DNA of 40,070 nucleotides from Gemmata sp. (GTDB taxonomy: Bacteria > Planctomycetota > Planctomycetia > Gemmatales > Gemmataceae): NCBI GenBank assembly GCA_022843445.1, contig JALHNS010000015.1, positions 1-40,070 of the forward strand. Direction: 5' to 3'. The first letter of the stretch is position 1, and each line of letters starts with the position of its first letter. Under the pieces are notes generated by a model. That model saw nothing but the letters and a program-made list of their open reading frames with translations. It was not told the DNA's origin and did not search any database. A program made the translations under genes and the position numbers. Below are positions 8,114 to 38,449 of the stretch, in pieces.

Positions 8114-8153
8114 GATTGCTCGCACCGCGTGCCGGTGTAGGGCGGTTCGTTTT

Positions 8154-8250
8154 CTGTGGTCCGGTCACGGAGCGACCGGATTTTCTGTTCGCTCCCTTGC
8201 TGAGTCTGTCGTGCTGCCCGTCATCCGGTCGCGGAGTGACCGGACCACAG
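8154..8250. repeat. Inverted pair of REP-like hairpin units (family 1)
   Basis: Two 28-nt units lie in inverted orientation at 8154-8181 and 8223-8250. Each begins (on its own strand) CTGTGGTCCGGTCAC and ends GCGACCGGAT, and each can fold on itself through TCCGGTC/GACCGGA. After reorienting, 25 of 28 bases agree; the only difference is the 3-nt loop, GGA in one and TCC in the other, i.e. the loop is inverted. The same unit occurs twice more at 10441-10538. The layout (short 5' tag, hairpin, paired inverted copies) is that of bacterial REP/BIME elements. They occupy the gene-free stretch 8060-8376, in which no protein-coding gene is evident. Confidence 0.75.
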
Positions 8251-8261
8251 GAAGAACCCAT

Positions 8262-9047: not shown

Positions 9048-10436
9048 ATGCCACGGTACGCGGTCGCGCTTGCGGCCTGTTTGTTCGTTCCGTGTGTCGC
9101 GCGCGCCGACGACGCGCGCCCGAACGTCGTGTTCCTGCTCGCCGACGACCTCGGCCGGCACGACTGCGGCTTCATGGGCGGAACCGACATCCGCACGCCG
9201 CACCTCGATAAGCTCGCGAAAGCGGGAACCGTTCTGGATGCGTTCTACGTGCAGCCGGTGTGCAGCCCGACGCGGGCCGCGCTGATGACCGGGCGCTACC
9301 CGATGCGCCACGGGCTTCAGGTGGGCGTCGTGCGGCCGTGGGCGCAATACGGGCTGCCGCTCGAAGAGCGCACGTTCGCGAGCGCACTGAAGGAAGCCGG
9401 CTACGCGACCGCGGTCGTGGGCAAGTGGCACCTCGGCCACTTCGCCCCGGACTACCTCCCCACGCGCCGCGGGTTCGATCACCAGTACGGCCACTACAAC
9501 GGGGCGCTCGACTACTTCACGCACGTCCGCGACGGCGGCTTCGACTGGCACCGCGACGACAAAGTTGCCCGCGACGAGGGCTATGCCACACACCTCATCG
9601 CCAAAGGCGCGGTGAAGTTCGTGCAGGAGCACGCGGGGAAGAAGCCGTTCTTTCTGTACGTGCCGTTCAACGCGGTCCACGCGCCGCACCAAGTTCCGCC
9701 GGAGTACATGAAGCCCTACGAAGGCAAACTGAAGGGCGAGCGGTTGAAGTACGCCGGGATGCTCGCGGCGATGGACGAAGCGGTCGGGCAGATCGTGGAC
9801 GCGGTGGAGAAGGCAGGGGCGCGGAAGAACACGCTGTTCGTGTTCAGCAGCGACAACGGCGGCCCGCAACCGGGCGTCGTGACCGACAACGGGAAGTACC
9901 GCGCCGGCAAGGGCACGCTGTACGAGGGCGGCGTGCGCGTCGCGGCGTTCGCCACGTGGGACGGCCGCATCAAGGCCGGCGGCACGCTGACCGAACCGCT
10001 GCACATGGTCGATTGGTTCCCGACGCTGGTGAAACTCTGCGGCGCGAAGGCCGAACAGAAGTTGCCGCTCGACGGCGTCGATCTGTGGCCCACTCTGACG
10101 GCCGGCAAGCCGTCACCGCACGACGCGATCCTGCTGAACACGACACCGAACACCGGCGCGGTGCGCGCCGGCGATTGGAAGCTCGTAGTGCGCACCGGCA
10201 CCGACGACCCGGACGGCGGCACGGTTCCCAAGAAGAAGGACGGCAAAGACGCGCTCGAACTGTTCAACCTGAAGGATGACCCGTACGAGAAGACGAACCT
10301 CGCGGAGAAGCACCCGGAGCGCGTGAAGGAACTGCAAGCGACGTTGTCGGCGTTCGCCAAGCAAGCCGTCACGCCGAAGTCGAAGCCGAAACCGAAAGAC
10401 TTCGTGACGCCCAAAGTCTGGGGCGAAAAGGACTGA
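9048..10436 (+). CDS. Exported sulfatase 1 (arylsulfatase-like)
   Basis: This 462-residue enzyme is the first of seven sulfatases on this strand. A signal peptide (1-20, ending VARA) exports it. Metal-site Asp33-Asp34 lie in FLLADDLGRHD. The formylglycine motif is CSPTRAALMTG with Cys72 as the residue to be oxidised. GKWHLGH (125-131) and SDNGG (268-272) supply the Lys, His and Asp/Asn of the sulfate and calcium site. Sulfatases hydrolyse sulfate esters; the substrate cannot be read from sequence. The ATG at 9048 was chosen because the signal starts there; an upstream in-frame TTG (9006) would add 14 unlikely residues. No accessory domain follows the catalytic fold. It is probably the first gene of the transcription unit, next to the inverted repeat at 8927-8957. 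Confidence 0.93.
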   Translation: MPRYAVALAACLFVPCVARADDARPNVVFLLADDLGRHDCGFMGGTDIRTPHLDKLAKAGTVLDAFYVQPVCSPTRAALMTGRYPMRHGLQVGVVRPWAQYGLPLEERTFASALKEAGYATAVVGKWHLGHFAPDYLPTRRGFDHQYGHYNGALDYFTHVRDGGFDWHRDDKVARDEGYATHLIAKGAVKFVQEHAGKKPFFLYVPFNAVHAPHQVPPEYMKPYEGKLKGERLKYAGMLAAMDEAVGQIVDAVEKAGARKNTLFVFSSDNGGPQPGVVTDNGKYRAGKGTLYEGGVRVAAFATWDGRIKAGGTLTEPLHMVDWFPTLVKLCGAKAEQKLPLDGVDLWPTLTAGKPSPHDAILLNTTPNTGAVRAGDWKLVVRTGTDDPDGGTVPKKKDGKDALELFNLKDDPYEKTNLAEKHPERVKELQATLSAFAKQAVTPKSKPKPKDFVTPKVWGEKD

Positions 10437-10440
10437 TTTC

Positions 10441-10538
10441 CCGTGGTCCGGTCACTCCGTGACCGGATTTGAAGTGCGACACAACTGCAACAACTCAACG
10501 AAGACAGAAACTCCGGTCGCGGAGTGACCGGACCACAG
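10441..10538. repeat. Inverted pair of REP-like units (family 1) between sulfatases 1 and 2
   Basis: Units at 10441-10468 and 10511-10538 are inverted copies of the 28-nt unit seen at 8154-8250. The first carries a perfect 9-bp stem (TCCGGTCAC, loop TCC, GTGACCGGA). The pair starts 4 nt after the stop of sulfatase 1 and ends 9 nt before the ATG of sulfatase 2, so it accounts for 98 of the 111 intergenic bases. The last bases of the right unit (CACAG) together with GA give the AGGA that serves as ribosome-binding site of sulfatase 2. Confidence 0.8.
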
Positions 10539-10547
10539 GAAAACTCT

Positions 10548-12221
10548 ATGCGCCTCTTCCTCTCTGCGGTTTGCGCGCTCGCTCTCTGCGCTGAAGGGCG
10601 GGCCGCCCCGAATGTCGTCGTGATCCTCACCGACGATATGGGCTTCTCCGATCTCGGCTGCTACGGCGGCGAGATTGCCACGCCGAACCTCGACGCGCTC
10701 GCCGCGAACGGCGTCCGGTTCTCGCAGTTCTACAACACAGCGCGGTGCTGCCCGACGCGCGCCAGCCTGCTCACCGGGCTGTACCCGCACCAAGCCGGTG
10801 TCGGGCACATGATGGACGACAAGGGCAAGCCCGGCTACCGCGGCGACCTGAACACCTCGTGTCGCGTGTTCGGTGAAGTGCTGAAGCCGGCGGGCTACCG
10901 CAGCTACGCGGTCGGGAAGTGGCACGTCACGAAGAGCGCCGGCAAAGACGGCCCGAAAGACAACTGGCCGCTGCAACGCGGGTTCGATCGCTTCTACGGC
11001 ACCATTCACGGCGCGGGCAGCTTCTACGACCCGTCGTCGCTGGTGCGCGACAACACGATGATCTCGCCCTACGCGGACCCGGAGTACAAGCCGAAGACCT
11101 ACTACTACACGGACGCAATCGCCGAACACGCCTCGCGGTTCGTGAGCGACCACGCGAAGGACCACAAAGAGAAGCCGTTCTTGCTGTACGTCGCGTTCAC
11201 CGCGGCCCACTGGCCGATGCACGCGCTGCCGGAAGACATCGCGAAGTACAAGGGGAAGTACGATTCCGGTTACGACCCGGTCCGCAAAGCCCGCTTCGAG
11301 CGCGCCGCGAAGCTCGGCCTCATCGACCCGAAGCAACCGACGACGCCCGGTTCGCGCGAGTGGGACAAGGTGCCCGACAAGAAGTGGGAAGCCGCGTGCA
11401 TGGAGGTGTACGCGGCGATGGTAGACCGCATGGATCAGGGCGTCGGGAGACTGGTCGCGGAGTTGAAGAAGACCGGACAGTTCGAGAACACGCTCATCCT
11501 GTACATGCAAGACAACGGCGGCTGCGCGGAACCGCAGGGCCGCACCGGGAACAAGAATCACCCCAACATCGCGCGCCCCGACAAGCCCACCTTCCCCGCG
11601 ATGAAGCCCACCGACTTCGCCGCGGCCGGCAGCGTGCCCGCGCAAACGCGCGACGGCTTCCCGGTGCGAATGGGGCCAAGCGTGATGCCCGGCCCGGACG
11701 ACACCTACATCGCCTACGGCCCCGGTTGGGCGAACGTCTCGAACACGCCGCTGCGCGAGTACAAGCACTGGGTTCACGAGGGCGGCATCAGCACGCCGCT
11801 GATCGCGCACTGGCCGAAGGGCATTTCCGCGAAGGGTGAACTGCGCCACACGCCGGGCCACCTCATCGACATCGCCGCGACCGTCTACGACCTCGCCGGT
11901 GCGAAGTACCCGAAGGACGCAACACCGCTCGAAGGCAAGAGCCTTGTGGCGGTGTTCGCCGGGAAGCCGCTCGAACGCGACGCGCTCTATTGGGAGCACG
12001 AGGGCAACCGGGCCGTGCGTGCCGGGAATTGGAAACTCGTGGCGAAGCACAACGCGAAGTGGGAACTCTACGACATCGGCAAAGACCGCGTGGAAGCGAA
12101 CGACCTGAGCGCGAAGGAACCGGACAAGCTGAAAGAACTGGTGGCAAAGTACGAGACCTACGCGAAGCGCGCGCTGGTGGAACCGTGGCCGGTGAACCCC
12201 GCGAAGAAAAAGAAGGAGTGA
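10548..12221 (+). CDS. Exported sulfatase 2 (arylsulfatase-like)
   Basis: The enzyme is 557 residues from the ATG at 10548, preceded by AGGA at 10537-10540 that overlaps the REP-like repeat. The signal peptide is residues 1-19 (ending EGRA). Asp29-Asp30 lie in VILTDDMGFSD. The formylglycine motif is CCPTRASLLTG with Cys67 as the modified residue; Cys68 is the variable position. VGKWHVTK and MQDNGG supply later active-site residues. It is ~100 residues longer than sulfatase 1 because of a longer central insertion (about residues 240-400), including LIDPKQPTTPGSREWDKVP, as in Pseudomonas-type arylsulfatases. The stop is 4 bp before the next start, so the two are very likely co-translated. Substrate unknown. 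Confidence 0.93.
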   Translation: MRLFLSAVCALALCAEGRAAPNVVVILTDDMGFSDLGCYGGEIATPNLDALAANGVRFSQFYNTARCCPTRASLLTGLYPHQAGVGHMMDDKGKPGYRGDLNTSCRVFGEVLKPAGYRSYAVGKWHVTKSAGKDGPKDNWPLQRGFDRFYGTIHGAGSFYDPSSLVRDNTMISPYADPEYKPKTYYYTDAIAEHASRFVSDHAKDHKEKPFLLYVAFTAAHWPMHALPEDIAKYKGKYDSGYDPVRKARFERAAKLGLIDPKQPTTPGSREWDKVPDKKWEAACMEVYAAMVDRMDQGVGRLVAELKKTGQFENTLILYMQDNGGCAEPQGRTGNKNHPNIARPDKPTFPAMKPTDFAAAGSVPAQTRDGFPVRMGPSVMPGPDDTYIAYGPGWANVSNTPLREYKHWVHEGGISTPLIAHWPKGISAKGELRHTPGHLIDIAATVYDLAGAKYPKDATPLEGKSLVAVFAGKPLERDALYWEHEGNRAVRAGNWKLVAKHNAKWELYDIGKDRVEANDLSAKEPDKLKELVAKYETYAKRALVEPWPVNPAKKKKE

Positions 12222-12225
12222 CACC

Positions 12226-13695
12226 GTGCGCACGCTGTGGATTCTCGCCGCGCTGTTCGCGTGCGCCCCGGTGCGCGCCGCGGACAAGCCGAACGTGCTG
12301 TTCATCGTCGCCGACGACCTGCGCGCCGAACTCGGCTGCTACGGCGGGGACGCCAAGACGCCGCACCTCGATGCGCTCGCGCGCTCCGGCACGCGGTTCG
12401 ATTTCGCGTTCTGCCAACAGGCCGTGTGCAACCCGTCGCGTTCGTCGTTCCTCACCGGGAAGCGGCCCGATTCGCTGCACCTGTGGTCGAACGGCACTCA
12501 CTTCCGTGCCCAGAACCCCGACGTGGTGACGCTGCCGCAGCACTTCAAAGCGAACGGCTACGACACGCGGTGCGTGGGCAAAATCTTCCACAACTGGCAC
12601 ACGAAGGAGAAGGGCGACCGGCGCTCGTGGAGCGCGGACGAGTTTCTCCACTACGCCAACCACGGCGACGACGCGCCGCAAGTGAAGAACGAACTGCCGC
12701 CGAACACCGCGAAGGGCATCGGCCGCGATTACGGCATGGTGCCGGTGTGCGAGTGCCGCGACGTGCCAGACGAAGCGTACTACGACGGCCGCGTCGCGTC
12801 GGAAGCGGTGCGCACTCTGGCGGCGGTGAAGGACAAACCGTTCTTCCTCGCGGTCGGGTTCTGGAAGCCGCACGCGCCGTTCAACGCGCCGAAGAAGTAT
12901 TGGGACCTGTACGACCGCGCGAAGTTACAGGACTTCCAAGCCGCGCGACCAAAGGGCGCACCGGAGATTGCGTTCCACGACGGCCGCGAGATACTCGGTA
13001 TCCCGCCGAAGGCGATCACGCCGACCGCGGAGCAAGTCGCCGAGATGCGGCACGGCTACTTCGCCAACATTTCGTACATGGACGCGCAAGTGGGCAAGGT
13101 GCTGAAGGCGCTGGACGAACACAAACTGCGCGACAACACGATCGTGGTGTTCCTCTCCGATCACGGCTACCACACCGGCGAACTCGGGCTGTGGGCGAAA
13201 ACGTCGTGCTTCGAGTTCGACGCGCGCGTGCCGCTCATCGTGCGCGCGCCGAAGGCCGAACCGCAGGTCGCGTCGCGCGCGGTGGTGGAACTGATTGACC
13301 TGTTCCCGACGCTCTGTGAACTGGCGAATCTCACTCCACCGAAGGGACTCGACGGCGCGAGTTTCGTACCCGCGGTGCGCGAAAAAAGGATCGCGAAAAC
13401 GGTCGCGTTCACGCAACACCCGCGGCCCGCCTACTACGACCGCACCGAGAAGGGCGTACCGGACGCGATGGGCTACAGCGCGCGCACCGCGGAGGGCCGT
13501 TACACCGAGTGGCGCGACTGGACCACCGGCAAACTGCTCGGCACGGAGTACTACGGTCGCGTGGTGCGCGGGAACGTGGCGCTGAACCAACTGAACAACA
13601 GGTTTACCGAGATCGAGCCGAGCGCCGCGCAGAAGGCGGCGCGCGACGCGCTGCACAAACAGTTCCCACCGGACGTGCCGCCCGCCAAACGCTGA
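12226..13695 (+). CDS. Exported sulfatase 3 (iduronate-2-sulfatase-like)
   Basis: The protein is 489 residues from the GTG at 12226, with AAGGAG as Shine-Dalgarno inside the end of the preceding gene. The signal peptide is residues 1-19 (ending VRAA). Asp30-Asp31 lie in FIVADDLRAELGCYGG and the formylglycine motif is CNPSRSSFLTG with Cys68. CQQAVCNPSRSS, PDVVTLPQHF, GKIFHNW and FWKPHAPF are typical of the iduronate-2-sulfatase-like subfamily rather than the plain arylsulfatases around it. LSDHGYHTGELGLWAKTSCFE holds later metal ligands and the subfamily GLW segment. It closely resembles sulfatase 5, with which it shares most of these motifs. The name reflects similarity only; actual substrates in planctomycetes are unknown. 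Confidence 0.92.
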   Translation: MRTLWILAALFACAPVRAADKPNVLFIVADDLRAELGCYGGDAKTPHLDALARSGTRFDFAFCQQAVCNPSRSSFLTGKRPDSLHLWSNGTHFRAQNPDVVTLPQHFKANGYDTRCVGKIFHNWHTKEKGDRRSWSADEFLHYANHGDDAPQVKNELPPNTAKGIGRDYGMVPVCECRDVPDEAYYDGRVASEAVRTLAAVKDKPFFLAVGFWKPHAPFNAPKKYWDLYDRAKLQDFQAARPKGAPEIAFHDGREILGIPPKAITPTAEQVAEMRHGYFANISYMDAQVGKVLKALDEHKLRDNTIVVFLSDHGYHTGELGLWAKTSCFEFDARVPLIVRAPKAEPQVASRAVVELIDLFPTLCELANLTPPKGLDGASFVPAVREKRIAKTVAFTQHPRPAYYDRTEKGVPDAMGYSARTAEGRYTEWRDWTTGKLLGTEYYGRVVRGNVALNQLNNRFTEIEPSAAQKAARDALHKQFPPDVPPAKR

Positions 13696-13712
13696 GACAA
13701 GGAGCGATTCGC

Positions 13713-14591
13713 ATGAACCCGATTTCCCGCCGCGAAGCCATCGCCGGCAGCGCGCTCGCGCTCGGCGCACTTACTTCGCGCGCCGAAGAGAAACCCGCCC
13801 GCGCGCTCGTGGTCGTGGGGCCGAGTCAGCACCCGCCGGGCACGCACGAAGTCGCCGCCGGCGGCCGGTTGCTCAAGCACTGCCTCGACGCGCTCGGCCT
13901 GAAAACGGACGTGGTCAGCGAGTGGCCGAAGGACGGCGCGAAGGCGTTCGCCGAGATCAAGACCGTCGTGTTCATCGGCGATCTGTTCCCGCCGGAAGTG
14001 ATGCCCAACCGCGACGCGATCATGGCCGACCTCGCGGCGATGACCAAGCGCGGTTGTGGCATCGTGTGCGTTCACTACGCGACCGGCCTTGAAGCGAAGC
14101 ACGTGCGCGAAGACGGCGACCACCCGCTGTTGCATTGGACCGGCGGCTACTTTGCGACGCGGTGCAATCACCACAAGTCGGTGGCGCGCGTGTTCAAGGA
14201 AGCGACCATCGAACCGGCGAAAGGCGACCACCCGGTGCTGCGCGGCTGGAAGCCGTTCACGCTGCACGACGAACCGTACATCAACAACTACTTCGGCAAA
14301 GACGGACCGTCGAAGGGCGTCACTGTACTGGCGACGTCGATGCTGCCACCGGAGAAGCCCGCGAAGGAAACGGTCGCGTGGGCCGCGGAGCGCGCCGACG
14401 GCGGGCGCGGCGCGGGCGTCGTGATGCCGCACTTCTACCGCAGTTGGGGCATTGAAGACTTCCGCATTCTGATGCTGAACGCGATCCTCTGGACCGCGAA
14501 ACTCGACGTGCCCAAAGACGGCGCGCGGGTGAAACTGCCGGACCTCGCGGAGTTCAAGCCGGCCGCGGTGGAACCGCCGAAGAAGAAGTGA
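13713..14591 (+). CDS. Exported ThuA-like protein
   Basis: The protein is 292 residues with its ATG at 13713 after an AAGGAG Shine-Dalgarno, 17 bp downstream of sulfatase 3. The N terminus MNPISRREAIAGSALALGALTSRA has a twin-arginine-like SRREA followed by a hydrophobic stretch, suggesting Tat export of a folded protein. The rest is a ThuA-like class-I-glutamine-amidotransferase-type fold: VVVGPSQHPPGTHE, GIVCVHYATG, HDEPYINNYF, and GRGAGVVMPHFYRSWG near the end. In planctomycetes ThuA-like domains often sit with sugar-modifying enzymes and sulfatases; the biochemical activity is not established, so I call only the fold. It ends with a Lys/Pro tail (PPKKK). The next gene is separated by a REP-type inverted pair. 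Confidence 0.88.
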   Translation: MNPISRREAIAGSALALGALTSRAEEKPARALVVVGPSQHPPGTHEVAAGGRLLKHCLDALGLKTDVVSEWPKDGAKAFAEIKTVVFIGDLFPPEVMPNRDAIMADLAAMTKRGCGIVCVHYATGLEAKHVREDGDHPLLHWTGGYFATRCNHHKSVARVFKEATIEPAKGDHPVLRGWKPFTLHDEPYINNYFGKDGPSKGVTVLATSMLPPEKPAKETVAWAAERADGGRGAGVVMPHFYRSWGIEDFRILMLNAILWTAKLDVPKDGARVKLPDLAEFKPAAVEPPKKK

Positions 14592-14597
14592 TTTCAG

Positions 14598-14704
14598 GGT
14601 AGTAGGCACGCTCCGCGTGCCGTTCTGCGGAGCGAAGATGGCAGTGCGAAGTTGGTGAATCTGACTCGGCCCGAACACACGGCACGCGGAGCGTGCCTAC
14701 TACC
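14598..14704. repeat. Inverted pair of REP-like units (family 2) between the ThuA gene and sulfatase 4
   Basis: A perfect 25-bp inverted repeat at 14598-14622 and 14680-14704. Each arm is GTAGTAGGCACGCTCCGCG followed by TGCCG and is itself a hairpin (GGCACGC, loop TCC, GCGTGCC) with a 5' GTAG tag, the signature of REP elements mobilised by RAYT transposases. The sequence differs from family 1 but the plan is the same: short tag, stem, TCC loop, inverted pair. It fills 107 of the 124 bases between the two genes. No RAYT gene lies in the window. Confidence 0.8.
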
Positions 14705-14715
14705 ATGGGGGCACC

Positions 14716-16464
14716 GTGCTTCGCTACTCGCTCCTCGCACTCCTCGCCGTCGCCGCGCCCGCGAGCGCCGCGGAGCGCCCGAACGTGCTCGTGATTCTCA
14801 CCGACGATCAGGGCTGGGGCGATCTGAGCATCAGCGGGAACACCAACCTGCGCACGCCGCACCTCGACGCGCTCGCCACCGACGGCGCGCGGTTCGACCG
14901 GTTCTTCGTGCAACCGGTGTGCTCGCCCACGCGGGCCGAGTTCCTCACGGGCCGCTGGCACCCGCGCGGCGGGGTGAGCGGCGTGAGTACCGGCGCGGAG
15001 CGCCTGAACCTCAGCGAGCGCACGATTGCCGATGCCTTCAGCGCCGCGGGCTACGCGACCGCGTGCTTCGGGAAGTGGCACAACGGCTCGCAGTTCCCCT
15101 ACCACCCGAACGGCCGCGGGTTCAGCGAATACTACGGCTTCACTTCCGGGCACTGGGGCGAATACTTCGACGCACCGCTCGACCACAACGGCAAGGCGGT
15201 GAAGGGCGACGGCTTCTCGGCAGACGACTTCACGTCGCGCGCCATCGCGTTCTTCAAAGCGCAGACCGAAGCGAAGAAGCCGGCGTTCGTGTACCTCGCG
15301 CTGAACACCCCGCATTCGCCGATGCAGGTGCCGCAGAAGTACTGGGACCGGTTCGAGAAGTTCCCGCTGAAGATGGTCGGCGACAAGAAGGAAGACGTGA
15401 ATCACACGCGGGCCGCGCTCGCGATGTGCGAGAACATTGACGACAACGTGGGCCGGCTCTCAGCAGCGCTTAAGGAACTGAAACTCGAGCGCGACACGAT
15501 CGTCGTGTACTTCAACGACAACGGCCCGAACGGTCCGCGGTGGAACGGCGGCATGAAGGGTCGCAAGGGGAGCACCGACGAAGGCGGGGTGCGCTCGCCG
15601 CTGCACATCCGCTGGCCGGCGGGCATCAAACCCGGCACGCTGGTGCCGCACATCGCGGGCGCGATCGACCTCTACCCGACGCTCTGCGCACTGGCCGGCG
15701 TGAAGCGCGTCGGTGAGAAACCGTTCGACGGCATCAGTCTCGCGCCGTGGCTGCTCGGCAAAGAGGCCAAGCCCACAGAGCGCGTGCTGTTCAGCGCGTG
15801 GGCCGGACGCGTGAGCGCGCGCGATCAGCGCTTTCGGTTGGATGCGGCCGGTGCGCTCTTCGATATGGTGAACGACCCGAACCAGACGAAAGACATCGCG
15901 AAGGAGAAGCCAGACGACGCGAAGCGCCTGAGCGCGGCGGTGGAAGCGTGGAAGCGCGACGTATACGCGCCTGCGAAGAAGGACGACCGGCCGTTCACGG
16001 TGGGCTACGCGGAGTTTCCGCGAACCGTGCTTCCCGCGCGCGACGGCGCGCCCGCCGGCGGCGTGAAGCGCAGCGCGAACGCGCCCAACTGCTCGTTCTT
16101 CACCAACTGGACGAAGCCCGAAGACGCGATGCTGTGGAACATCGAAGTGAACACCGCGGGCCGCTATGAAGCGATCGTTCACTATACCTGCGCGAAAGCC
16201 GACGTGGGCGCGACTGTGGAACTTGCGCTCGGCGCGGCGAAGTGGACCGGCACCATCGCCGACGCGCACGACCCGCCGCTGCGCGGCGCGAAAGAAGACC
16301 GCGTACCGCGACAGGGCGAATCCTACGTGAAGGACTTCAAACCGCTGTCGCTCGGTGTGGTGGAAGTGCCCGCGGGGAAGGGCACGCTGACGCTCCGCGC
16401 GCCGAAGGTGCCGGGCAAGGCCGTCGCGGATGTGCGCGCCGTGGAACTCGTGCTGGTGAAGTGA
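14716..16464 (+). CDS. Exported sulfatase 4 with C-terminal beta-rich extension
   Basis: The protein is 582 residues from the GTG at 14716 (CACCGTG context, as at sulfatases 3 and 7). The signal peptide is residues 1-19 (ending ASAA). Asp30-Asp31 lie in VILTDDQGWGD; the formylglycine motif is CSPTRAEFLTG with Cys69; FGKWHNG and FNDNGP give further active-site residues. The catalytic domain ends near residue 435. Residues ~437-582 are an added beta-rich module (MLWNIEVNTAGRYEAIVHY and a long tail of short strands) that looks like a carbohydrate-binding or linker module; sulfatase 6 has a comparable one. The Shine-Dalgarno is only a run of G after the REP pair. The stop overlaps the next start by one base (TGATG). 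Confidence 0.92.
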   Translation: MLRYSLLALLAVAAPASAAERPNVLVILTDDQGWGDLSISGNTNLRTPHLDALATDGARFDRFFVQPVCSPTRAEFLTGRWHPRGGVSGVSTGAERLNLSERTIADAFSAAGYATACFGKWHNGSQFPYHPNGRGFSEYYGFTSGHWGEYFDAPLDHNGKAVKGDGFSADDFTSRAIAFFKAQTEAKKPAFVYLALNTPHSPMQVPQKYWDRFEKFPLKMVGDKKEDVNHTRAALAMCENIDDNVGRLSAALKELKLERDTIVVYFNDNGPNGPRWNGGMKGRKGSTDEGGVRSPLHIRWPAGIKPGTLVPHIAGAIDLYPTLCALAGVKRVGEKPFDGISLAPWLLGKEAKPTERVLFSAWAGRVSARDQRFRLDAAGALFDMVNDPNQTKDIAKEKPDDAKRLSAAVEAWKRDVYAPAKKDDRPFTVGYAEFPRTVLPARDGAPAGGVKRSANAPNCSFFTNWTKPEDAMLWNIEVNTAGRYEAIVHYTCAKADVGATVELALGAAKWTGTIADAHDPPLRGAKEDRVPRQGESYVKDFKPLSLGVVEVPAGKGTLTLRAPKVPGKAVADVRAVELVLVK

Positions 16465-17339
16465 TGCTGCGATACGAGACGAAGGGGAAGGTGCGCGCGA
16501 TGGCGCTGTCGCCGTGCAGCACGCGCGTCGCGTTCGTGGCCGGTCGCGAAGCGCCGGCGAACGTGTGGGAGCCGGCGACTGGGGCCGTATCGAAGTCGCC
16601 GACGAGCGGTGATGTCGTACGGTCGCTCGCGTTCACCCCGTCCGGCGAAGTGCTGACGCTGGGCACCGGGCGAGTGCTTCATCAGTGGCGCTTTGAAGAC
16701 AACGTGCTCGACAGGAACTGGGCGCGCGTTGCGAACGACTGTCGACTTCTGTCGTACTCGCCGGACGGCACGAAGCTCGCGGCACTCACGTTCCCGTGGG
16801 GCGGTCCGGGCGACCGCTACTACCTCACGGTATTCGATGAAGCGAAATCGGACGAGCGCGAGAAAGTGCCGGGCGATTACGGCCCGCCGTTCGCGCTCGC
16901 GTTCTCGCCGACGGCGCGTTGGATCGCGGCCGGCGGGACCGGGAAGATGGTTCGCGTATGGGCGCTCGGCGAGAAACTCAAATCGCGGGGATGGCTGTGT
17001 AGCAGTGCCGTGAACGCACTCGCGTTTTCGCCAGACGAGCAAGCACTCGCGCTCGCGTCCGATACGTGGCTCGCGGTGAACGCCGCCGGCACATGGGAAC
17101 CGCTGGCGGAACTGATCGGCCACGCGGGCGCGGTGAGCGCGACCTGCTTCCTTCCCAACGGCACGCTGCTGAGCGCCGGGGCGGACGGCACCGCGCGCTT
17201 GTGGGACACCGGCACGGCGCGCGAGCTGGCGTGCTTCGATTGGAAACTCGGCGCGCTGTCGCACGCCGCAGTCAGCGCCGACGGCGCGCTTACGGCGGTC
17301 GCGGGCGAGCGCGGAATCGTGGTCTGGGACTTGGAGTAA
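16464..17339 (+). CDS. WD40-like beta-propeller protein, translationally coupled to sulfatase 4
   Basis: The protein is 291 residues; the ATG at 16464 shares its A with the TGA stop of sulfatase 4. It has no signal peptide, so unlike its neighbours it should stay in the cytoplasm. WD40-type repeats are visible throughout: AMALSPCSTRVAFVAG...ANVWEPATG, LAFTPSGEVLTLGTG, LLSYSPDGTKLAAL, ALAFSPTARWIAAGGTGKMVRVW, AVSATCFLPNGTLLSAGADGTARLWDTGT and SADGALTAVAGERGIVVWD. That gives about six or seven blades, enough for one propeller. WD40 propellers are protein-binding platforms with no enzymatic activity of their own. What it does inside a sulfatase operon is unknown; a sensing or scaffold role is a guess. 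The next gene starts 6 bp later. Confidence 0.88.
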   Translation: MLRYETKGKVRAMALSPCSTRVAFVAGREAPANVWEPATGAVSKSPTSGDVVRSLAFTPSGEVLTLGTGRVLHQWRFEDNVLDRNWARVANDCRLLSYSPDGTKLAALTFPWGGPGDRYYLTVFDEAKSDEREKVPGDYGPPFALAFSPTARWIAAGGTGKMVRVWALGEKLKSRGWLCSSAVNALAFSPDEQALALASDTWLAVNAAGTWEPLAELIGHAGAVSATCFLPNGTLLSAGADGTARLWDTGTARELACFDWKLGALSHAAVSADGALTAVAGERGIVVWDLE

Positions 17340-29559: not shown

Positions 29560-30984
29560 ATGCCGCATTCCGTTCTCATCATCGACGACGAAGAACCTAT
29601 TGCGTGGGCGCTGCGGCGCGCGTTCGAGCGCGAGAAGCACCGCGTTGAGGTGGCCGCGACCGCCGAAGACGGCCTCGCCAAAGCCCGACGCACGCCGCCG
29701 GACGTCGTGTTCCTCGACGTGCGCTTGCCGGGCATGGACGGCCTCACGGCGCTCGCGCAACTGCGCGCCATCGCGCCGAACGCGGCGGTCGTCGTCATCA
29801 CCGCGCACGGGAACCTGAACACCGCGGTGAAGGCGGTCGAAGGCGGCGCGTTCGATTACCTCGCGAAGCCGTTCGAGTTGGCCCAAGCGCTCGACGCCGC
29901 GAAGCGCGCCCTCGCGCAGCGCGCCGCGCCGTTGGGCGAAGCTCTGAAGCCCGCGGACGTGGACGACACGCCGGACGCCATCGTCGGCCGCAGCCCGGCG
30001 ATGCAGACCGTGTTCAAGCGGATCGCGCTCGTTTCCCCAACGAACGCCTGCGTACTCGTGACCGGCGAGAGCGGAACCGGGAAGGAGTTGGTCGCGCGGG
30101 CGATTCACGCGAACGGCCCGCGGCGCGGCAAGCCGCTCGTGGTGGCGCACGTCGCGGCGTTCAACCCGAACCTCGTGGAGAGCGAACTGTTCGGGCACGT
30201 TCGCGGCGCGTACACCGGCGCGGAGAAGCAGCGCGAGGGGCTGTTCACCGTCGCGCACGGCGGCACGCTGTTCCTCGACGAACTCGCGGACATCCCGCTT
30301 CCAGTTCAGGCGAAGTTGCTGCGGGTGCTCGAGCGCCAAGAGGTGCAACCGGTTGGCGGGAACGAGACGCACACAGTCGACGTTCGGCTCGTCTCCGCGA
30401 CGCACGCCGACCTTTCGACCGCGGTCCGCGAGGGGAAGTTCCGGCACGATCTGTTCTTCCGCCTGAACGTGTACCCGATTCACCTGCCGCCGCTCCGCGA
30501 CCGCGTGGACGACATCCCGCTGCTCGCGGACCACTTCCTGCGCAAATTCGGCGTGTCGAACCCGGCGCAAGTGCTACCGGTCGAAACGCTGAACTTCCTC
30601 AAGGCGCGCCCGTGGCCGGGGAACGTGCGCGAGCTGCGCAACGCGCTCGAACACGCCGCGATCGAAGCCCGCGGCGCGACGCTGCGGCCCGAACACTTCC
30701 CCGAACCAACGAGCGCGACCGGCCCCGCGTCTGTCGCGGAGCGGTTGCGGTCGCTGGTGGTGGAGTGGGCGCGCGAGCAGGTGACCGCGCTCGCGGGCGC
30801 GGAACCGGCCGACTTGCACCTGAAGCTGATCGAGGAGTTGGAACCGGCGCTGCTCGACGAGGTGCTGCGCCAACTGGACGGGAACCGACTGGTCGCGGCG
30901 CGCTGGCTCGGCCTCGCACGCGCGACCGTTCGCAAGCTGATTCGCAAGTACCACCCGGACCGCAACGAACCGGACGACGACTGA
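29560..30984 (+). CDS. Sigma-54-dependent response regulator (NtrC family)
   Basis: The protein is 474 residues from the ATG at 29560. The receiver domain (1-120) has Asp9/Asp10, phospho-acceptor Asp53 in VVFLDVRLPGMDG, Thr81 and Lys103. The AAA+ domain (~140-375) has Walker A GESGTGKE 169-176, the sigma-54-contacting loop GAYTGA 216-221 (usual form GAFTGA), Walker B GGTLFLDE 234-241 and the RHDLFFRLNV segment with arginine fingers. A Fis-type helix-turn-helix is at ~425-465 (LLDEVLRQLDGNRLVAARWLGLARATVRKLIRKY). It activates sigma-54 promoters upon phosphorylation. No histidine kinase is adjacent, so it is an orphan here. The start is uncertain: no Shine-Dalgarno lies before 29560, and ATGs at 29524/29527 are in frame; a TATGAT hexamer at 29523-29528 would give a short leader before 29560. 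Confidence 0.93.
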   Translation: MPHSVLIIDDEEPIAWALRRAFEREKHRVEVAATAEDGLAKARRTPPDVVFLDVRLPGMDGLTALAQLRAIAPNAAVVVITAHGNLNTAVKAVEGGAFDYLAKPFELAQALDAAKRALAQRAAPLGEALKPADVDDTPDAIVGRSPAMQTVFKRIALVSPTNACVLVTGESGTGKELVARAIHANGPRRGKPLVVAHVAAFNPNLVESELFGHVRGAYTGAEKQREGLFTVAHGGTLFLDELADIPLPVQAKLLRVLERQEVQPVGGNETHTVDVRLVSATHADLSTAVREGKFRHDLFFRLNVYPIHLPPLRDRVDDIPLLADHFLRKFGVSNPAQVLPVETLNFLKARPWPGNVRELRNALEHAAIEARGATLRPEHFPEPTSATGPASVAERLRSLVVEWAREQVTALAGAEPADLHLKLIEELEPALLDEVLRQLDGNRLVAARWLGLARATVRKLIRKYHPDRNEPDDD

Positions 30985-31062
30985 GTTGTCAGTTGTCAGT
31001 TGTGAGTCAGAGCACACCGAGCTCCTGCACACAGACAACTGATAACTGACAACTGACAACTC
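30983..31062. repeat. Heptamer-based inverted repeat between convergent genes
   Basis: GAGTTGTCAGTTGTCAGTT (30983-31001) is perfectly repeated in inverse at 31044-31062. Each arm is made of tandem TTGTCAG heptamers, resembling the short tandem heptamer repeats described in cyanobacteria. The left arm begins inside the TGA stop of the response regulator; the right arm ends 4 nt before the stop of the minus-strand gene. A 19-bp stem with a 42-nt loop could act as a bidirectional terminator. Confidence 0.7.
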
Positions 31063-37235: not shown

Positions 37236-38417
37236 ATGTCTGTAACGGTTTTCACGAACGCGACGCTCGTGCTGCCGGACGCGGTGCGCCCGAACGCGAC
37301 GCTCGCGGTCAGCGACGGCATCATTTCCGAAATCGACGACGATTTGCACGTCGCGGACGCGATCGACCTCGAAGGCGCGTACCTCGCCCCGGGGTTCGTC
37401 GACCTGCACGTTCACGGTGGCGACGGCTCCGACTTCATGGACGGCACGCCGGAGGCGTTTCGTACCGTTTGCCGGTGTCACGCGCGGCACGGCACCACGA
37501 GCCTGACGCCCACGAGTACCGTTGCCACCGGTGCGCAGTGCGACCGGTTCCTGCAACTGTGCCGCGAACTGAAGGGCGACGTGCCCGGCGGCGCCCGCAT
37601 TATCGGCAGCCACTTCTACGGTCCGTACTTCGCGCGACCCGCACGCGGCTGTCACCCGGACCAAGAGTTCCTGATTCCCGATGCGGCGAACGCGGCGCGC
37701 TTCATGCCGACGGCCGATGTGATGCCGCTGATCGTGACGGTGGCACCGGAGATCGAGAACGCGGAGTGGCTGGTGCGCGAGTTCGCGCCGCGCGGCGTGA
37801 AGTTCAACGCCGGGCACAGCCACGCGACGTTCCCGCAAGTGGAGGCCGCGGTTTCGTGGGGCGTGCGGCACGTCGATCACCTGTTCTGCGCGATGTCCGA
37901 CCGCGCGCGACTGCGGCAGACACAAACGTACCCGATGCGCGCGGGCGTGATGGAAGCGACGCTGTACTTCGACGAACTGACGACAGAAGTGATCGCGGAC
38001 GGCAAGCACCTGTCGCCAGAGTTGCTGCGGCTCGCGTACAAGGTGAAAGGGCCGGACCGCCTCGCGCTCGTCACCGATTCCATGCGCGCCGTGGACCTGC
38101 CCGACGGCGAATACTGGTTCGGTGCGGAAGGCAGCGGCGAGAAGGTGCGCAAGCTCGACGGCGTGGGTGTGACGCTCGACGGCACCGCGCTGGCGTCGTG
38201 CGTGATGGGCATGGATCACTGCGTGCGCACGATGCACTTCGCGGCCGGCGTGCCGCTGGTGGAAACGATTCGCATGGCGAGCCTGACGCCGGCCCGCATT
38301 CTGGGGGTCGAACGCGAGATCGGCAGCATCGAAGTGGGTAAGCGGGCGGACTTGCTCGTGCTCGACGCGCAACTCAACGTGCGCGCGGTGTACGTGGGCG
38401 GGGAGCAGGTGCAGTAG
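37236..38417 (+). CDS. N-acetylglucosamine-6-phosphate deacetylase-like amidohydrolase (NagA family)
   Basis: The protein is 393 residues from the ATG at 37236 (an in-frame ATG at 37221 has poorer spacing to a ribosome-binding site). NagA removes the acetyl group from GlcNAc-6-phosphate in the cytoplasm, feeding amino-sugar catabolism or wall recycling. HxH is at 58-60 (DLHVHGGDG), His194 in NAGHSHAT, His215 in HVDHLFCAM and Asp281 in LVTDSMRA. In the usual family motif G-x-H-L-E-G-P the Glu is a metal ligand; here the segment is GSHFYGPYFARPARGCH (124-140), so Tyr128 replaces that Glu. HLFNAM is also HLFCAM. The enzyme may use a different metal geometry or substrate. A perfect hairpin terminator overlaps its stop. 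Confidence 0.85.
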   Translation: MSVTVFTNATLVLPDAVRPNATLAVSDGIISEIDDDLHVADAIDLEGAYLAPGFVDLHVHGGDGSDFMDGTPEAFRTVCRCHARHGTTSLTPTSTVATGAQCDRFLQLCRELKGDVPGGARIIGSHFYGPYFARPARGCHPDQEFLIPDAANAARFMPTADVMPLIVTVAPEIENAEWLVREFAPRGVKFNAGHSHATFPQVEAAVSWGVRHVDHLFCAMSDRARLRQTQTYPMRAGVMEATLYFDELTTEVIADGKHLSPELLRLAYKVKGPDRLALVTDSMRAVDLPDGEYWFGAEGSGEKVRKLDGVGVTLDGTALASCVMGMDHCVRTMHFAAGVPLVETIRMASLTPARILGVEREIGSIEVGKRADLLVLDAQLNVRAVYVGGEQVQ

Positions 38418-38449
38418 GCGAACCCCGCCCTTGTGGGCGGGGTTCGCCT
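38416..38449. terminator. Bidirectional intrinsic terminator
   Basis: AGGCGAACCCCGCCC (38416-38430) and GGGCGGGGTTCGCCT (38435-38449) form a perfect 15-bp stem with a TTGT loop. It overlaps the last two bases of the NagA-like stop codon and ends 6 nt before the stop of the convergent DUF4139 gene, so it can serve both. Confidence 0.88.

Follow-up and report, generated by a model that had tools for sequence, protein, structure and literature searches.

Two inverted pairs fill the wide gaps of a sulfatase operon

We analyzed a stretch of 40,070 nucleotides from Gemmata sp. (GenBank assembly GCA_022843445.1, contig JALHNS010000015.1, positions 1 to 40,070 of the forward strand), hereafter the window, focusing on two hairpin-forming repeats within a nine-gene sulfatase operon. 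Pfam assigns seven of the nine genes to Sulfatase, one to ThuA and one to WD40. Two junctions of the operon are wide: 111 bp (10437-10547) separate the sulfatase genes S1 (9048-10436, + strand) and S2 (10548-12221, +), and 124 bp (14592-14715) separate the ThuA-domain gene (13713-14591, +) from the sulfatase gene S4 (14716-16464, +). The remaining junctions consist of 4 bp, 17 bp, an overlap, 6 bp, 16 bp and another overlap. An earlier note on this DNA placed inverted pairs in exactly the two wide gaps, with all other junctions at 17 bp or less, and both the gene ends and our search for inverted pairs agree. The pair in the S1 gap joins 10437-10470 to 10509-10542 (34-nt arms, 91%) and that in the ThuA gap joins 14595-14623 to 14679-14707 (29-nt arms, 97%); they top the list of 18 inverted pairs in the window. 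Each gap is predicted to fold as a single long hairpin, with a stem that begins directly behind the upstream stop codon. The folding energies are -62.7 kcal/mol for the S1 gap (z -10.4) and -73.1 kcal/mol for the ThuA gap (z -7.9); in neither case did any of 200 shuffles fold as well. Rfam, at its gathering thresholds, gave no match anywhere in the window.

Long GC-rich hairpins in such places could serve the operon as intrinsic terminators or attenuators of transcription, and 3 of the 15 terminator-like sites in the window do overlap elements of the kind described below: 8158-8182 (+), 10532-10512 (-) and 10525-10510 (-). Yet shuffled sequences lead one to expect 15.3 such sites, none of those found lies on the + strand within the two operon gaps, and neither operon hairpin is followed by a run of T in the direction in which the genes are read. 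Termination is therefore a highly improbable role for them.

Two repeat families share one layout

The S1-gap feature, which we call a family-1 element (10437-10542, no strand assigned), carries GTGG-tagged palindromes at 10443-10466 (+) and 10513-10536 (-), with the tails TTTCCC and CAGGAAA. The ThuA-gap feature, a family-2 element (14592-14707, no strand assigned), carries GTAG-tagged palindromes at 14599-14622 (+) and 14680-14703 (-), with the tails TTTCAGG and CATG. Both have a variable middle, and each directly abuts the TGA of the preceding gene. The family-1 arm reads GTGG TCCGGTCAC TCC GTGACCGG and, allowing up to 3 mismatches, matches the 7.39-Mb assembly of this organism 43 times (24 + 19), although at least 5 of these matches are one palindrome read again on the opposite strand. 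The family-2 arm, GTAG TAGGCACGC TCC GCGTGCC, has 185 matches (95 + 90) under the same threshold. The same patterns read backward match nowhere in this assembly for either family.

Family-2 arms occur mostly as doublets. Across 100 loci of the assembly, some of them overlapping, we counted 58 distinct pairs and 11 leftover arms; the loci were drawn from the best matches listed, which favors intact copies, and one listed element, on contig C386, was left out. The pair length is 106 or 107 bp in 41 of the 58. Compared by eye, these elements, which had themselves been selected by their arms, look alike at their ends and variable in the middle.

The earlier note described the two operon pairs as unrelated in sequence, which does not hold: aligned at the GTRG foot, their arms are identical at 14 of 24 positions and obey one rule, namely GTRG, nine bases, a three-base loop (usually TCC) and a return stem in which at least 7 of the 8 positions pair. 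When the rule was applied to the window, only the six arms of three elements fitted it, one of them with the loop GGA. The third element, absent from the earlier note, is a family-1 copy at 8151-8253 (no strand assigned) downstream of a transglutaminase-like gene, with arms at 8156-8179 (+, loop GGA) and 8225-8248 (-).

The elements extend beyond their arms. In family 2 the arms are preceded by CTTCA(G/T/A)(G/A), inverted on both sides, and an A stands at position -3 in 110 of 116 ends. In family 1 the 20 ends from this assembly mostly have TTNCT before GTGG, and the tails differ in three relatives (G006, G015 and G018). Since these flanking bases recur inverted on both sides, the TTTC behind S1 and ThuA belongs to the elements. 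The string TGATTTC that the earlier note saw after both stops is indeed present; it is not a separate shared site, because it consists of the TGA stop codon and the elements' own ends.

Both families thus have inverted palindromes within one hairpin, a GTRG foot, a short stem with a three-base loop, and a genomic distribution as doublets. These are features of REPINs, hairpin-forming doublets of repetitive extragenic palindromic (REP) sequences.

Most elements lie behind stop codons across the genome

To place gene ends outside the operon we used a codon-usage caller of our own, for which the sulfatase operon served as training set. Its starts are unreliable (it called that of S2 at 10620 instead of 10548). 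Context was available for 57 of the 58 family-2 pairs, the other lying too close to the end of its locus. None of these 57 elements, and none of 11 family-1 elements of the same genome, lies inside a called gene. A gene end is found within 13 bp of an arm in 42 of the 57 family-2 elements, and in 38 of the 52 for which both neighbors were called, when 16.8 would be expected from random placement in these gaps. Of the 35 elements that separate co-directional genes, 30 are no more than 13 bp away from the stop, and 5 are that close to the start. The stop codon itself falls partly or wholly within the arm on 10 of 46 stop sides. The middle of family-2 elements has no preferred orientation relative to the preceding gene (19 against 16, 11 unclear).

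Family 1 follows the same tendency: 8 of 10 elements in this genome lie near a gene end (4.4 expected). In relatives we sampled 20 stretches from G006 (which has 209 arms), 15 from G015 (40 arms) and 5 from G018 (13 arms), obtaining 19 usable elements from G006 and 12 from G015 and G018 together. One element in each of these sets lies inside a called gene, and 11 of 19 (6.4 expected) and 8 of 12 (4.4 expected) lie near a gene end. The earlier note regarded operon junctions as the insertion target. The pattern is instead one of nearness to stop codons across the genome, in which operon junctions are not special.

A patchy distribution and empty junctions in relatives

Both families are unevenly distributed among 99 genomes searched with at most 1 mismatch. 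Family 1 occurs in six of them (27 matches in this genome, 209 in G006, 40 in G015, 13 in G018, 8 in G001 and 4 in G004) and family 2 in seven (151 in this genome; 7, 3, 2, 1, 1 and 1 in the others). With anything from 0 to 209 arms per genome, one family within a single genus lends itself well to studies of the expansion of such families and of what they may do to gene expression.

Neither operon element was found at the corresponding place in relatives: there is no family-1 element behind S1 in any of 16 loci of relatives centered on the orthologue of S1, and no family-2 element behind ThuA in the 5 relative loci that show this junction. The earlier note had predicted an empty ThuA junction of 17 bp, and the closest relative, G001, has exactly that (TAA, 17 bp, ATG); G004 has an empty junction of 18 bp. 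In G011 and G017 this junction is longer and has no scored pair. In G015 an inverted pair of the GTAGCACAGGGC type lies there. Behind S1, the next ATG follows after 26 bp in G001 and 27 bp in G008. In G015 and G035 this place is taken by pairs of two additional types, and in G014 there is a hairpin at the gene end. The S1/S2 site has no counterpart in relatives, since S2 was found in none of the 16 loci; in members of the genus S2 is located elsewhere.

In G015 both slots, behind S1 and behind ThuA, are occupied by inverted pairs of two other types (locus L094, 3426-3541 and 4441-4575). We considered and dropped the idea of an insertion hot spot at these slots. The slots of relatives do carry other pairs, yet inverted pairs fill 15 of the 77 called gaps in ten loci anyway (2 of 3 in G015), and the sharing of a slot is therefore unremarkable.

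The earlier note suggested that the hairpins could tune mRNA stability and the balance between the enzymes encoded before and after them. On such a reading they would be regulatory RNA elements that selection retains at these two junctions. Their stability within an operon and the filled slots of G015 speak for it. Against it, none of the relatives examined has a family-1 or family-2 element at these slots, which in G001 are empty. Most copies elsewhere lie behind the stops of many genes, and the frequency of filled gaps deprives the coincidence in G015 of its weight. We judge such a selected regulatory role improbable.

Palindromes of the same layout often flank genes of a RAYT clade

The likeliest mobilizers of such elements are REP-associated tyrosine transposases (RAYTs), and RAYT-like proteins are present in the relatives. 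Five of them form one clade with HxH and YIxxNP motifs; against the NCBIfam RAYT model, which has a cut-off of 80, they score 57-64 bits. A scan of the genome collection with this clade gave 37 loci, which we take to be all from Planctomycetota or Verrucomicrobiota; the scan is biased in this direction, since it can detect a protein only through short peptide patterns also present in a planctomycete alignment.

The palindromes beside the RAYT genes of relatives have the layout of families 1 and 2 without having their sequence. At least one arm fitting the rule is found in 24 of the 37 loci and at least two in 21, and the loop is TCC in 91 of the 98 arms beside RAYT genes. Among the controls, the layout appears at 1 of 26 IS200-like transposase loci, and 740 base-shuffled loci gave 23 hits. 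Two of the RAYT loci, L264 and L265, have the same palindromes and are perhaps not independent. The closest link to a family comes from G006, the genome with 209 family-1 arms, where the RAYT is flanked by GTGGTCCGCTCGC-TCC-GCGAGCGG, a version of family 1 in which the stem differs by two compensated changes.

This link also bears on a different kind of mobility, in which the elements would be miniature derivatives of a cut-and-paste (DDE) transposon. Inverted ends, a family-2 length near 106 bp and our failure to find a RAYT of the clade in the assembly are compatible with it. Each end, however, forms a palindrome of its own on a GTRG foot, the layout flanks RAYT genes elsewhere, and the conserved flanks are inverted rather than direct repeats, although no dedicated search for target duplications or for a DDE transposase with ends of this kind was made. 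We regard this origin as very unlikely.

The features in the two gaps are, very probably, REPINs, short non-autonomous mobile elements for which a RAYT clade with the same layout is the likeliest mobilizer. Several observations count against this interpretation. The assembly (636 contigs, 94.6% complete) yielded no RAYT of the clade; its best match is a RAYT of a different type, next to a different palindrome. Thirteen of the 37 RAYT loci have no arm of this layout, and the base-shuffled loci are not free of hits. At least 4 of the 37 (L249, L257, L261 and L267) appear to be rows of the query alignment; without them, 20 of 33 carry the layout. Family 1 is less tightly stop-adjacent outside this genome (11 of 19 and 8 of 12, as above). 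Finally, the empty junctions of relatives are not base-exact empty sites, because the best identity of an S1 protein among relatives is 83%. The cognate RAYT gene may have been lost or may be missing from the 636-contig assembly. Taken together, copy number, patchy distribution in relatives and a layout common with RAYT-flanking palindromes support the proposal of the earlier note that these are mobile REP-type hairpins.

The one RAYT of this genome that scores above the model cut-off (locus L207, G000:C172, approximately 1275-1987) lies among palindromes of the form GTGGCACAGGCT-NNNN-AGCCTGTGCC. They constitute a third family, which matches 48 + 48 times, a count in which some palindromes figure once for each strand. 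A search of this genome with Pfam Y1_Tnp returned one IS200-like gene, accompanied by palindromes of another kind, and one questionable frame that contains a stop. An IS200-like transposase gene in locus L031 (G000:C241, 150-830) is flanked by inverted CCCCGGCC-GGCCGGGG palindromes, and the IS200-like genes of other relatives carry GTAGCACAGGGC-type palindromes like those of the G015 pair behind ThuA.

How the elements may have arrived and what they may do

The structure and position of the elements suggest how they could have spread. Two GTRG-tagged palindromes in inverted orientation would form a unit that a RAYT can mobilize, and the common layout points to the clade described above as the one that may move families 1 and 2. 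Insertion behind a stop codon would spare both the gene and the ribosome-binding site that follows, and would thus be tolerated. Target choice or selection may have produced the stop-adjacency, and the two gaps of the operon would represent two such insertion events.

Once transcribed, an element would form a long hairpin starting directly behind the upstream stop. If it has any effect on S1 and ThuA, by analogy with stop-adjacent REPs of E. coli the likeliest would be slower ribosome release and altered processing of RNA 3' ends.

The ribosome-binding-like bases before S2 (the AGGA at 10537-10540, preceding its ATG and belonging to the end of the family-1 element) and before S4 (14706-14710) lie at the element ends, and the predicted folds pair them with the nucleotides that follow the upstream stops. 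One could imagine from this a translational clamp, in which UUUCC would pair with the AGGA of S2 and UUUCA with the UGGGG of S4, and the hairpin would mask the start region of the following gene except when a ribosome terminates on the gene before it. The modeled free RNA agrees in that the last three bases of the AGGA are unpaired with a probability of 0.00. When the stop region was blocked to +15, however, the four S2 bases became unpaired with a probability of only 0.01-0.41, and those of S4 of 0.07-0.76, and no clear release was seen. Such a clamp appears unlikely; if it existed, a mobile element would install translational coupling wherever it inserted.

Other features of the window

Within the sulfatase operon, the gene for the WD40-repeat protein (16461-17339) overlaps the preceding sulfatase gene by 4 bp. 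Another inverted pair (30983-31062; GAGTTGTCAGTTGTCAGTT and its complement) lies between convergent genes, and its arm has 5 matches in this genome with at most 1 mismatch. A short hairpin at 38416-38449, in a 38-bp gap between convergent genes, is terminator-like by its place.

Relation to known systems

The elements belong to the known REPIN class, and their reading as mobile elements is well supported, which the operon-specific regulatory reading is not. An account valid across the genome, in which palindromes of one layout lie mostly behind stop codons and share this layout with a RAYT clade, replaces a regulatory story specific to one operon. The layout could also provide a way to match orphan REPIN families with their transposases. 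We met no mention of families 1 and 2 in the literature searched; they may nevertheless be in print.

The consulted parts of Bertels and Rainey (2011, PMC3116915) describe REPINs as two inverted REPs with a spacer, forming one hairpin, with doublets that outnumber single arms and are mainly extragenic. The architecture of families 1 and 2 is the same as in those parts; the sequences and the host phylum differ. Compared with these REPINs, our families are putatively mobile, to judge from the empty ThuA junctions and uneven copy numbers of relatives, and no cognate RAYT was found in the assembly. A missing cognate RAYT would have a precedent, since some REP hosts lack it according to the sections seen of Di Nocera et al. 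(2013, PMC3733652).

The RAYT clade shares HxH, Y---NP and flanking palindromes headed by GT(A/G)G with the RAYT/TnpAREP proteins, as these are presented in the excerpts of Nunvar et al. (2010, PMC2817692) and of PMC6006769. It differs from known RAYTs in scoring below the NCBIfam cut-off. According to the excerpt of Nunvar et al. (2010, PMC2817692), other major lineages yielded no homologs.

In E. coli, REPs within 15 nt of a stop codon are reported to stall ribosomes (Liang et al. 2015, as cited in the part seen of PMC12306157). Hairpins at most 15 nt from the stop are found there and here, although the phylum is another one and our evidence is purely genomic.

The nearest likeness is with the GTAG-tagged REP dimers described in the sections seen of Di Nocera et al. 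(2013, PMC3733652), which include GTRG/GTGG variants, short stems and loops and tags on the outside, and occur also in Planctomycetes. The fixed N9-TCC layout of families 1 and 2 was not met in these sections; the two families may be among the 24 described there. The same sections place REPs less than 20 bp from the 3' ends of genes and report that GTAG ends supply TAG stops, so that stop-adjacency is to be expected of elements of this kind. The foot tag, the stems and loops, the outward tags, the proximity to 3' ends and the TAG stops are thus common to these dimers and to families 1 and 2.

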